This document shows, in pieces, positions 53,049 through 56,967 of a DNA stretch of 64,000 bases. The notes under the pieces were generated by a model that was given only the letters and a program-made list of their open reading frames with translations, had not been told where the DNA came from and searched no databases. The DNA is taken from NCBI GenBank assembly GCA_021463845.1, contig JAJTXV010000003.1, forward strand, positions 186,001-250,000, in the 5' to 3' direction. A program made the position numbers and the translations under genes. Positions within the stretch are counted from its first letter, which is position 1. Each line of letters starts with the position of its first letter. The stretch is from Anaerolineales bacterium. Its GTDB lineage: Bacteria > Chloroflexota > Anaerolineae > Anaerolineales > UBA11579.

Positions 53049-54224
53049 ATGCCATTGGATTTTCTCTCTGTCAAGCAGCAGTCCGCCCAAATCGCTGCCA
53101 ATGCGCCCCAAGAGCAGCAGCGCATCCAGGCTTTGCGCAGCAAAGCGGCTGAGCTGCTGGCCGAACACGCCGACAAAGGCGCCGAACTGCGCGCCAAAGT
53201 GGAGCTGGCCGCCCAGCTGGACAGCTGGCTGCGCAGCGCCAAGCCCACCGGCGAGGCGCTGACCGCCAGCTTCCCGCTGCCCGCCGCGCCCGGCAGCCTC
53301 ATGGTCATCGCCGCCGATGGCTCGCAGATCAACCCTGACCGCCACGCCGCGCTCAACTTCTATCTGGTGAACCTGGGCGCCATCCTCATGCGCACCCACA
53401 GCGGGCAGGCCCCGCTGCAGCGCGTGGATACCCGCCTGCACTATGCCGAATACAGCTCCACCGGCAGCGTAACGCAGGATCAGGTGGGCCTGGAGCGCGA
53501 CACCAACGAGCGCATCTTCCTGGCCAGCCTGGCTGCCGAAGCGCACGACCTGCCCGTCCTCACCCTCACCGACGGCCCGCTGGAGCTGTGGGGCAGCCGC
53601 AGCCAGGACCCGCAGGAGCAGCAGAGCTACCTGGGCGCGCTCGAAAAATACTTGACCGCCCTGCAAGCTCTGCACGCCGCCAACGCCATCACCGCCGGCT
53701 ATGTCGATAAGCCGCGCGCCGACCTGGTGGTGCGCGCCCTCGAGATCGTCGCGACGCCGCAGGAGCTACTGGGCGATACGCGCAAGCTGCGCTATCTGCG
53801 CGGCGTCACCGATGCCGACTTGTTCGCTTTTCTGGCCCCGGGCGAACGCTCGGCCTTGTTTGCGCAGCAAAGCCAGCTGGCCTCCCGCTACGAAGGCCCG
53901 CTGGCGCTGCACTTCTTCTATCTCAATGTGGGCGACGAGCGTCAAAGCAACCTGGCCCGCGTCGAAGTACCGGCCTGGGTCGCCGAAGACCGCGGCAGGC
54001 TGGATACGTTGCACGCCGCCTTAGTGGAGCAGTGCAAGCTGCTCACCTCGCGCCCCTACCCCTATGTGTTGCACCGCGCCCACGAGATCGCCGTGGTGAC
54101 CCGCGCCGAAAAAGACGAAGTGACCAGCATGCTGCAACGCGCCCTGGAAGCCGAGGGCGTGCACACCGGCGATATGTCGCACAAGCAGGCCCTCAAAGAT
54201 CTGCCGGGCCGTGGAAGGAATTAA
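53049..54224 (+). CDS. NurA-domain 5'-3' nuclease
   Basis: 391-residue NurA-fold nuclease. Acidic active-site positions are seen in VIAADGSQINPDR (about residue 95), LTLTDGPLELW (about 178) and AGYVDKPRADL (about 217), and the conserved end YPYVLHRAHEIAVVT lies near 340. A coiled N-terminal region precedes. NurA works with the HerA translocase in DNA-end resection in archaea and some bacteria; herA is encoded two genes downstream. In some bacteria HerA-coupled nucleases act in phage defence, but this one lacks other defence neighbours. Confidence 0.87.
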   Translation: MPLDFLSVKQQSAQIAANAPQEQQRIQALRSKAAELLAEHADKGAELRAKVELAAQLDSWLRSAKPTGEALTASFPLPAAPGSLMVIAADGSQINPDRHAALNFYLVNLGAILMRTHSGQAPLQRVDTRLHYAEYSSTGSVTQDQVGLERDTNERIFLASLAAEAHDLPVLTLTDGPLELWGSRSQDPQEQQSYLGALEKYLTALQALHAANAITAGYVDKPRADLVVRALEIVATPQELLGDTRKLRYLRGVTDADLFAFLAPGERSALFAQQSQLASRYEGPLALHFFYLNVGDERQSNLARVEVPAWVAEDRGRLDTLHAALVEQCKLLTSRPYPYVLHRAHEIAVVTRAEKDEVTSMLQRALEAEGVHTGDMSHKQALKDLPGRGRN

Positions 54225-54833
54225 ATGAGCGAGACCAACTACCCCATCGGGCGCCTGCTGCGCTCCGGCATCACCGGCTTTGTAGCCGGCTGCCCCATCG
54301 TCGAGCAGGAGCGGCCCAGCTTCGGCGCCCTGGTGCGCGCCCCACTCGGCCCGAATGACTCGATCTACGGCGTTGTACACGAGCTGAGCATCCTGGATGA
54401 TGGCCTGGTGCGCCAGCTGGTGACGCGTGACCAGCCAGTCGACGCCACCGTGATCGCTGATAACCGCGTCAATCGCACCGTGCCGATGGAGATCAGCGTG
54501 CTGGCCGTGGGCCACAGCAAGGACGGCGCCATCAGCCACGCGCTGGCGCCGCGCGCCCCGCTAAGCCTTGACGCCATTAACCAATGCAGCCCCGAGGAGA
54601 TCGTGGCCTTCACCAACCACGGCAGCTTCGGCTACCTGCGCCACCTGCTGCGCGACACCGAGCTGCCGGTAGGCGAGCTGGTGGCCGCCCACGTGCGCCA
54701 GGCAGCGGCGGCCAACACCGCCGCCGGCAAGCCGGAGTGGAAGGCGCGCGCCACCCAGGAGCTGATCGCCCTGCTGCGCGACGACTATACGGTGCTGATG
54801 CAGGTATTGGGTGCATTGGCAGATGAATTTTAG
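54225..54833 (+). CDS. HAS-barrel-like protein between nurA and herA
   Basis: 202 residues. The N-terminal 60 residues (YPIGRLLRSGITGFVAGCPI...FGALVRAPLGPNDSIYGVVHELS) look like a HAS barrel, the beta-barrel that starts HerA and F-type ATPase subunits. The rest is helical, with SPEEIVAFTNHGSFGYLRHLLRD and a C-terminal helix. It begins 1 nt after the nurA stop, with GGAAGGAATT as ribosome site. It is probably a subunit or adaptor of the NurA-HerA complex. The name is inferred from pattern and context only. Confidence 0.6.
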   Translation: MSETNYPIGRLLRSGITGFVAGCPIVEQERPSFGALVRAPLGPNDSIYGVVHELSILDDGLVRQLVTRDQPVDATVIADNRVNRTVPMEISVLAVGHSKDGAISHALAPRAPLSLDAINQCSPEEIVAFTNHGSFGYLRHLLRDTELPVGELVAAHVRQAAAANTAAGKPEWKARATQELIALLRDDYTVLMQVLGALADEF

Positions 54834-55245
54834 ATTTGTGATTTTTGATTGCTGATTTGAGGGATGGCATGAACAAGCAAGAATTGCAGAAGCGCACAAA
54901 GGATTTCGGATTGCGTGCAATCAGACTCATTGATTCGCTACCGCGCTCAAACAGCGCATCCATCATTGGTAGGCAATTATTGCGCTCTGCCACCTCAGTT
55001 GGCGCCAACTATCGCTCTGCCTGCCGGGGGCGCTCCAAAGCGGAATTCATTGCCAAGCTGGGTATTGCGCTTGAAGAAGCTGACGAAACACATTACTGGC
55101 TCGAACTATTGATCGAATCCAAGCTAGTTTCACAACAGGCTGCGAATCCGCTGCTAAGCGAAGCGAACCAATTGGTCGCCATATTGACCGCCTCTGCCAA
55201 GACCGCGCGGTCAAATCAAAAATCTGCAATCAAAAATCACAAATC
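54833..55245. mobile_element. Inverted-repeat element carrying an S23-type gene (IVS-like)
   Basis: The ends are near-perfect inverted repeats: 54833-54858 pairs with 55220-55245 over 26 positions with one mismatch, and the outer 20 bp are perfect (GATTTGTGATTTTTGATTGC). The sequence is AT-rich compared with nurA and herA. ATTTT flanks both ends one base outside the repeats (54827-54831 and 55247-55251), a possible but low-complexity target duplication. The left end touches the stop codon of the HAS-barrel-like gene. The right end is within the S23-type coding region. 23S rRNA intervening sequences with S23 genes have the same plan: a stem closed around an S23 open frame and cut by RNase III. 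Confidence 0.7.
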
Positions 55246-55264
55246 GATTTTGAGGTCCTCATGA
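54869..55264 (+). CDS. Four-helix-bundle protein (S23/IVP family)
   Basis: 131 residues. Conserved blocks of the S23/TIGR02436 family: KRTKDFGLRAIRLIDSLPRS, SIIGRQLLRSATSVGANYRSACRGRSKAEFIAKLGIALEEADETHYWLELL in pieces, and LLSEANQLVAILTASAKTA. The family forms a pentameric four-helix bundle; its role is unknown, and a relative (Avd) serves diversity-generating retroelements, of which there is no sign here. The C-terminal tail (SNQKSAIKNHKSILRSS) is encoded by the right inverted repeat. The stop overlaps the herA ATG (ATGA), so the gene is coupled to herA. Confidence 0.88.
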   Translation: MNKQELQKRTKDFGLRAIRLIDSLPRSNSASIIGRQLLRSATSVGANYRSACRGRSKAEFIAKLGIALEEADETHYWLELLIESKLVSQQAANPLLSEANQLVAILTASAKTARSNQKSAIKNHKSILRSS

Positions 55265-56967
55265 CTGACTCTCCCCATTACATAGGTTACATCGTCGGCG
55301 GTAATCTCAAGGACAATCTCACCGTGCGCCTCACCGTGCCTTCGCACGAGGTACAAGAGGGCGCGTTTGTGGTTGTGGAAAGCGGCGACTGGCTGTTCCA
55401 CGGCCTGGTGACCGACCTGCAGCTCGGCGACACCGACCCGCGCTTCGCTGACGAGTCCGGCAGCCGCCTGCCCGCCGAGCTGGCCGCCATGCTGCACGGC
55501 CAGACGCTCTTCACCAATCTGCAGATGCTGCCCGCCCTGATGATGGAGCGCGGCCCGGAACCCGGCAGCCCGGAGTACCAGCAGTGGCTCGACGCCATCA
55601 AGGCCGGCATACTTCCCAAGCCGCGTGCCCTGCCAGTCAAGACCATTCCGCCGCACCGCGCCCAGGTGCGCCTGGCCAGCGAAGGCGACATCGCCGAGAT
55701 CTTCGGCGACCCCACAGACAAGGACAACTTCGTGATCGGCTCCACGCGCGAGCAGGACCACCCCGTGGCGATCGACTTGCACAAGCTGGTGCAGCGCTCC
55801 TCAGGCGTGTTTGGCGCCACCGGCACCGGCAAGAGCTTCCTGACCCGTTTGCTGCTGGCCGGCCTCATCCATCACAACGCCGCCTCGGTGCTGGTGCTGG
55901 ACATGCACAACGAGTACGGCTTCGACGACACCTCGTCGGATACCAATGAGCGCGTCACCGGGCTCAAGACCAAGTTCCCCAGCCGAGTCCAGATCGTTGG
56001 CCTGGGTGCCGGCACCACCATCCGCGGCCAAAACCCCGACTTCCACCTGGAAGTCGCCATGAGTGACATCATGCCGCAGGACATCGAACTGCTCACCCGT
56101 GAGCTCAACCTCAAGGAGACCACGCCCACCACGCTGGACGCGCTCGTCTCGAGCTTCGGAGCGCGCAACTGGTTCAAAGCCTTCAAGGACATGAAGTCCA
56201 ACGCCGTCATCGAAGGCGACGACGGCAAGAAGATCCCCGCGCCCGACAGCGTGGCCGCATGGGCGCGTGAGCGCGGCGTCAACGAGATGGCCGCCGAAGG
56301 CTTGCACAGCAAGCTCAGCCGCGTGTTCAACCTGCCCTATGTCGTCGAGCGGCCTGCTATGGATGGCATCGGCGAGGTCATCAAGGCCCTGGAGGCCGGC
56401 AAACATGTGGTGCTCTCCTTCGGCAAGCACGAGAGCGACCTGGACTATCTCTTGGTCAGCAACCTGTTGACCCGCCGCATCCGTGAGCGCTGGGAGCACA
56501 CCACCAACGAGTTCCGCACCACTGGCAAGCACGAGCCGCGCCCGCTGGTGATCGCCGTCGAAGAAGCCCATAAGCTGCTCAACCGTGAGATGGCCGCCCA
56601 GACCAGCTTCAGCACCATCGCCCGCGAGCTGCGCAAATACTACGTCACCCTGCTGATCATTGACCAGCGCCCTAGCCAGATCTACGACGAGGTCATGTCG
56701 CAGCTCGGCACGCGCATCTCCGGCTGGCTGGGCGACGATGACGACATCCGCGCCGTGCTCAGCGGCCTGGCCGGCCGTGACGCCCTGCGCGGCATGCTCG
56801 CCCGCCTGCAGCCCAAAGAGGAAGTCCTGCTGCTGGGCTGGGGCGTACCGATGCCGCTGCCGGTGCGCAGCCGCCGCTACGATGACAAATTCTGGCAGGA
56901 GCTGCTGGGCGACAAGGCAGCCGGCAGCAAAAGCGAGAAGCAGCTCAAGAAAGAGCTGGGGTTTTAA
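55261..56967 (+). CDS. HerA-type hexameric DNA translocase
   Basis: 568 residues. An N-terminal HAS barrel (about 1-60), then Walker A GATGTGKS (residues 185-192), Walker B with catalytic glutamates in VIAVEEAHKLL (about 430-440), and a sensor-like LLIIDQRPSQI. The C-terminal segment SEKQLKKELGF is short. HerA pumps DNA toward NurA for end resection. The gene is the last of the nurA operon and is preceded directly by the inverted-repeat element, so its expression depends on read-through of that element or on coupling to the S23-type gene. Confidence 0.9.
   Translation: MTDSPHYIGYIVGGNLKDNLTVRLTVPSHEVQEGAFVVVESGDWLFHGLVTDLQLGDTDPRFADESGSRLPAELAAMLHGQTLFTNLQMLPALMMERGPEPGSPEYQQWLDAIKAGILPKPRALPVKTIPPHRAQVRLASEGDIAEIFGDPTDKDNFVIGSTREQDHPVAIDLHKLVQRSSGVFGATGTGKSFLTRLLLAGLIHHNAASVLVLDMHNEYGFDDTSSDTNERVTGLKTKFPSRVQIVGLGAGTTIRGQNPDFHLEVAMSDIMPQDIELLTRELNLKETTPTTLDALVSSFGARNWFKAFKDMKSNAVIEGDDGKKIPAPDSVAAWARERGVNEMAAEGLHSKLSRVFNLPYVVERPAMDGIGEVIKALEAGKHVVLSFGKHESDLDYLLVSNLLTRRIRERWEHTTNEFRTTGKHEPRPLVIAVEEAHKLLNREMAAQTSFSTIARELRKYYVTLLIIDQRPSQIYDEVMSQLGTRISGWLGDDDDIRAVLSGLAGRDALRGMLARLQPKEEVLLLGWGVPMPLPVRSRRYDDKFWQELLGDKAAGSKSEKQLKKELGF

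Follow-up and report, generated by a model that had tools for sequence, protein, structure and literature searches.

The S23/IVP gene located between a conserved 202-aa gene and herA was bracketed by two inverted arrays of 7-nt units, and the same arrangement was general, being found around most sampled S23 genes in about 17 bacterial phyla. The herA-locus element is read here, with a probability of about 0.52, as a minimal mobile element that ends in heptamer arrays bound by its own S23 pentamer. The reading starts from direct observations, namely the architecture, its generality, a shared unit linked to the S23 clade, a modal count of five units, presence, absence and swaps at one site, and arrays that carry no gene. 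From these we infer binding by S23, synapsis of the ends and movement at the DNA level.

Architecture of the element in the nurA–herA operon

The first-pass annotation of the window (the whole stretch of 64,000 nt that was analysed) had described an AT-rich segment of 413 bp with an S23 gene between the arms of a 26-bp inverted repeat containing one mismatch. The repeat was found at 54833–54858 and 55220–55245, where the 26 nt were 96% complementary (25/26) and the arms were 361 nt apart. Its perfect core measured 20 bp; elsewhere in the window, inverted pairs within 800 bp reached at most 17 bp. The GC content was 0.489 in the 413-bp segment and 0.27 in the repeat arms, compared with 0.624 in the window. 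The location of the element in a protein-coding operon also held, with nurA and herA assigned by Pfam (Table 1), and the 202-aa gene, previously called HAS-barrel-like, was without a Pfam match.

The tandem 7-nt structure of both arms had been missed. The left arm was read as GATTTGT GATTTTT GATTGCT GATTT (unit GATTTNN), and the TAG stop codon (54831–54833) of the gene upstream of the S23 gene fell within this array. The Shine-Dalgarno sequence of the S23 gene, GAGGG, was located at 54859–54863. As annotated at first, the C-terminal tail of the S23 protein was encoded by the right array, and its TGA codon (55262–55264) overlapped the herA ATG (55261–55263) in the form ATGA. Secondary to the main explanation, this overlap could plausibly affect herA translation locally. 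Most of the herA Shine-Dalgarno sequence was included in the right flank.

Table 1. Features of the element and its neighbours (coordinates of the window).
Feature	Position	Strand	Remarks
nurA	53049..54224	+	PF09376, 9.4e-19
Conserved 202-aa gene between nurA and herA	54225..54833	+	Conserved in relatives
Left flank GAATTTTAG	54825..54833	.	Possible first half of a duplicated target; suggestive only
Left (upstream) heptamer array	54827..54858	+	GATTTNN, ~4 units; lag-7 segment and inverted repeat
S23/IVP four-helix-bundle gene, 131 aa	54869..55264	+	PF05635, TIGR02436, AF2 model
Right (downstream) heptamer array	55214..55245	-	Reverse complement of the GATTTNN unit
Right flank GATTTTGAG	55246..55254	.	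Possible second half of a duplicated target; suggestive only
herA	55261..56967	+	PF01935, 2.5e-26

The genome to which the window belongs (G000; 2.33 Mb, 20 contigs) contained three S23 genes that were mutually diverged. The other two were also flanked by inverted 7-nt arrays, with the units CTGANNG and AAGGATG.

The S23 protein and its fold

The 131-aa protein matched the Pfam family 23S_rRNA_IVP (PF05635) with an E-value of 3.1e-20 (72.8 bits; curated cut-off 33.8) and the NCBIfam family TIGR02436 with 1.1e-26 (93.2 bits; curated cut-off 24). Its AlphaFold model (AF2) was composed of four helices with a pLDDT of 98, and matched the S23 structure 2rld with a TM-score of 0.87–0.90 and an r.m.s.d. 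of 1.7. The model also resembled 2gsc and, at greater distance, Avd (4dwl). Avd, which belongs to the diversity-generating retroelements (DGRs; 4dwl, 8ub7), has the same four-helix-bundle fold as S23, and is a pentamer with a nucleic-acid partner. The solved S23 and Avd structures contained five chains, and by analogy the S23 protein of the herA locus probably forms a five-membered ring. S23 carried no known recombinase signature.

Heptamer arrays around S23 genes across bacteria

When lags of 4–12 were compared in the flanks of S23 genes (130–150 nt), lag 7 was the best in 95.6 of 112 upstream and 98.8 of 111 downstream flanks (ties split). The same lag was best in 57 of 655 far flanks (~9%) and in 8 of 111 windows inside the S23 gene. 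In an enlarged set of 154 distinct S23 loci from about 17 phyla, period 7 was best in 132 upstream and 137 downstream flanks. A mostly cyanobacterial set was examined afterwards, in which period 7 was best in 28/46 upstream, 32/46 downstream and 29/264 far flanks, and period 8 formed a second mode. A single scan of named genomes, with a narrower S23 alignment as the query, gave 80 S23 loci from many phyla. The choice of loci by highest score favours some S23 clades, and the genomes compared were mostly draft assemblies.

Some S23 loci had period 8 or were without a clear array. At L058, L159, L167, L232 and several loci among L321–L340, the best period was 8, not 7, on both sides. Arrays of 7 nt were also found around most S23 loci sampled from 61 relatives. 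The presence of S23 itself was patchy, in 47 of the 61 relatives and in 75 of 251 genomes of the phylum.

Sequence, number and order of the units

The two arrays of one element shared one unit in inverted orientation, as the reverse complement fitted better in 80 of 91 cases. Read in the gene direction upstream and on the other strand downstream, the unit had the core T-N-A-G-Y, with frequencies of 0.87 for A and 0.97 for G. Its last two positions varied most, while the other five of the seven were kept in fixed phase and polarity. The unit at the herA locus (TGATTNN) was a divergent member of this core. Whole core-matched units most often numbered five on each side (37/101 and 48/118; median 5.0), and the commonest pair was (5,5); the count of five was looked for after the five-chain structures, the expectation was not logged beforehand, and four was not much rarer. 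Each S23 protomer would then contact one heptamer unit.

Unit sequence was linked to the S23 protein. Among sites whose flanks were unrelated, unit similarity correlated with S23 identity (Spearman 0.54), the highest value of 300 permutations being 0.13, and between phyla the coefficient was 0.55, the same with GC content partialled out. This correlation would follow from recognition of the unit by S23, and also from simple co-transmission of the gene and its arrays. Some residues covary with unit bases, but they are confounded by phylogeny and serve as a lead only.

The same regularities bear on the idea that the arrays are a mutational by-product, in which replication slippage would make the 7-nt arrays, template switching would match the two sides and S23 would play no part. 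Imperfect inverted repeats are known to be corrected to perfect ones by template switching. Array length also differed by whole units, both in copies of one element of genome G427 (3 or 4 TTTCAGG units) and among Coxiella strains (PMC4990558). However, a by-product of this kind is hard to reconcile with variation mainly at two of seven positions, with a unit identity that follows S23 similarity across phyla, with far flanks without period 7 and with a modal count of five, and we regard it as very unlikely.

The two arms showed no more colinearity in their heptamer order than expected at random. Among 98 elements the median rank p was 0.69, and three reached p ≤ 0.05. A matched stem is thus generally not maintained; the unit is kept rather than a continuous duplex, and the arms resemble rows of binding sites more than a conserved RNase III stem.

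The first-pass annotation had proposed such a stem, cut by RNase III as in the 23S rRNA intervening sequences (IVSs), through which the element would process or regulate the nurA–herA mRNA. The Coxiella 23S IVS with its S23 gene is indeed cut by RNase III in vitro (PMC4990558). In the predicted fold of the RNA of 54800–55280 the arms paired over 26 bp, which agreed with that proposal, but the total energy gave only z = -1.97 against shuffled sequences. Furthermore, the herA-locus element was exceptional in that its arms matched better (25/26) than the shared core alone predicts (p ~0.005 given that core). Against the proposal, the random order of units in 98 elements ruled out an RNase III stem as a general conserved feature, and the 23S rRNA signature oligonucleotides that were looked for were absent from all S23 loci tested (the 154-locus and the mostly cyanobacterial sets). 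As the main explanation the stem was left unsupported and appears improbable, though, with arms this well matched, cutting of the nurA–herA mRNA may still occur at this locus. Recognition of the arrays at the DNA level is favoured because they are inverted, face the same way at both ends and have no conserved duplex.

Presence, absence and exchange at two sites

The interval separating the 202-aa gene from herA was occupied in five genomes of the genus (that of the window, G007, G003, G009 and G010) and empty in four (G008, G005, G001 and G002). The HerA of G008 was 97% identical to that of the window. The empty sites in G008 and G005 showed that close relatives lack the element, and rather than all keeping the same S23 gene, relatives were either empty or carried another one. 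The first-pass annotation had named an empty site joined exactly at the repeat ends as proof of insertion; the empty allele GATGAGTTTGAGGCGTAACTTATG aligned up to the arrays but gave no clean joint there. The candidate target duplication rested on a comparison of the two flanks (Table 1) with the empty site of G008, GAGTTTGAG. At the sites compared, no movement was observed, nor any clear target duplication or excision footprint.

Filled sites differed in the element that they carried. HerA was 97.5% identical between the genome of the window and G007, whereas their S23 proteins were 68% identical and their units were GATTTNN and AGAATGC, respectively. The tree conflict of this pair alone was not significant (AU p 0.076). 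HerA of G009 and G010 was 98.3% identical, compared with ~60% for S23, and a tree keeping the S23 proteins of G009 and G010 together, in the host-like grouping, was rejected (p 0.004).

A second site was located between a fumarylacetoacetate-hydrolase-like and a homogentisate-dioxygenase-like gene, both named from reading the sequence. The genome of the window carried an S23 gene of the TCAGC type and G008 one of the TAAGC type at this site, with flanks that were 91–97% alike. G007 and G005 were without S23, and the allele without the gene had another intergenic sequence. The swaps at both sites indicate that the S23 gene and its arrays were replaced together, while the flanks stayed those of the host.

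Other sequences were also observed at the herA site. In G004, a GIY-YIG-like gene, assigned by eye, was located where relatives carry S23 (L099:690-1830), together with repeated palindromes of the CGTCATTGCGAGGAGGGCG type and, immediately upstream of herA, an array of AAATCNN heptamers. A CAATCAG heptamer array was found within the first herA codons of G009 and G010 and added residues to HerA (L101:1700-1790 and L100:1560-1600).

S23 genes of the herA-site family also adjoined herA in the other genera represented by G017, G028, G033 and G058, and the association is therefore old, which counts against frequent movement. Such persistence speaks for the main rival explanation, a long-resident regulatory module useful to the host, in which S23 would bind the arrays and regulate its own operon and the genes beside gene-less arrays, inherited in place and exchanged by homologous recombination with no transposition of its own. 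The overlap of the S23 stop with the herA start, and the way in which unit identity tracks S23 identity, are in keeping with such a module, and the swaps could stem from recombination between related alleles. The module accounts less well for close relatives without the element whose operon is not obviously lost, for swaps that exchange gene and arrays within flanks retaining host sequence, and for the patchy presence of S23 described above. Together with the evidence on gene-less arrays below, which falls on both sides, these points leave the resident module rather unlikely.

Gene-less arrays and multicopy families

The pattern TCAGCNNTCAGCNNTCAGC, which describes TCAGCNN arrays, gave 55 overlapping matches at about 25 places in the genome of the window, and the reversed pattern gave one. 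Just one of these places corresponded to an S23 gene. Several of the gene-less arrays formed inverted pairs, and many began at a stop codon or adjoined a terminator-like hairpin. One inverted gene-less array was absent in G005 and G001, where the flanks were joined or nearly so, which counts against the resident module. On the other side, a gene-less AATCNAA array before a uridine-kinase-like gene (L022:985-1024; L381, L383) was nearly identical in the genome of the window, G005 and G002, and supports it; this array looks as if it is under constraint. The absence in two relatives and the near-identity in three species suggest that some arrays come and go and that some may serve the host.

Near-identical S23 copies at several places were not found in the genome of the window, with its three diverged S23 genes. 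The only multicopy S23 family was found in G427 (Cyanobacteriota, the phylum of G304; L346–L356), with eleven S23-bearing copies that were ~96–99% alike over the S23 part. These copies were MITE-like, with 16-bp terminal repeats (TAACTGACGTTACGCA/TGCGTAACATCAGTTA) and the TTTCAGG units mentioned above. As proof of movement driven by S23 the family was rejected, since the terminal repeats were unrelated and the S23 gene was broken by a nested element; the family moves inside a different element. Duplicated S23 copies in G362 and G142 were uninformative, being identical over the whole sequence retrieved or part of larger duplications. In G142, two S23 copies ~88% alike lay within an apparent repeated-domain gene (L363), and a third was on another contig (L364). 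A REP-like palindrome, GAAAGTTGCATGAATATGCAACTTTC (query 1464–1526; L374), had many copies in the genome of the window and in relatives.

Comparison with known systems

The herA-locus element resembles the 23S rRNA IVS of Coxiella burnetii in protein family, size (413 and 428 nt, respectively) and terminal inverted repeats. The IVS lies within a 23S rRNA gene, whereas the herA-locus element lies between protein genes and has heptamer arrays at both ends. Tandem GACAGAT heptamers have been reported upstream of the S23 gene in the Coxiella IVS (PMC4990558).

Unlike in DGRs, no reverse transcriptase was found among the neighbours at the herA locus (NurA, the conserved 202-aa protein and HerA), and to our knowledge no described DGR includes heptamer arrays. 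REP elements with RAYT genes and MITEs share with S23 elements the short repeats that bracket a gene and the many gene-less intergenic copies. However, S23 elements end in tandem 7-nt arrays whose sequence is not fixed from one element to another, their sole protein is S23 and not a Y1 or DDE transposase, and they have no clear target duplication.

Dispersed intergenic tandem arrays of 7 nt, like the gene-less arrays described here, include the STRR of Nostoc and Calothrix, GGGAATC of Xanthomonas and TAACTGA of Beggiatoaceae and Microcystis (PMC4692102, PMC4679880). On the other strand TAACTGA reads TCAGTTA and fits the T-N-A-G-Y core. Bacterial heptameric repeats have been reported as over-represented and unexplained, with S23 not mentioned (PMC4692102, PMC4679880). 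A general rule that S23 genes lie between inverted heptamer arrays was not stated in the literature searched, which included few subscription papers, and the rule is new only as far as that search reaches.

Proposed mechanism and implications

In the mobile-element reading, the element is made up of an S23/IVP gene and, on either side of it, an array of about five 7-nt units with the core T-N-A-G-Y, the two arrays being inverted. A five-membered S23 ring, as in solved relatives, would bind the arrays, most likely with one unit per protomer. Both ends would be recognised by S23 and could be brought together as DNA. The element would enter intergenic gaps, downstream of one gene's stop codon and upstream of the following ribosome-binding site, positions at which it may do little harm. 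End arrays without the S23 gene would spread too, and movement may be rare or need help.

More tentatively, and at somewhat less than even odds, S23/IVP genes in general may be the coding part of small mobile elements that occur throughout bacteria, with inverted ends of about five heptamers, the protomers of the pentamer contacting one unit apiece. The heptameric repeats scattered through many bacterial genomes would then be gene-less relatives, and the 23S IVS a special case that landed in rRNA.

For decades, the S23/IVP proteins have been regarded as hypothetical passengers of 23S IVSs. Joining them with heptamer repeats gives S23 a testable function, the binding of a 7-nt unit by each protomer, and gives some of the unexplained 7-letter repeats of bacteria a testable origin. 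It also points to a possible relative of the ancestor of the DGR Avd protein. At the herA locus, the element would represent a way for a few hundred bases to enter a repair operon that stays unbroken. These results suggest that S23 and its arrays are a type of small mobile element not recognised so far, from which some of the unexplained 7-letter repeats may derive.
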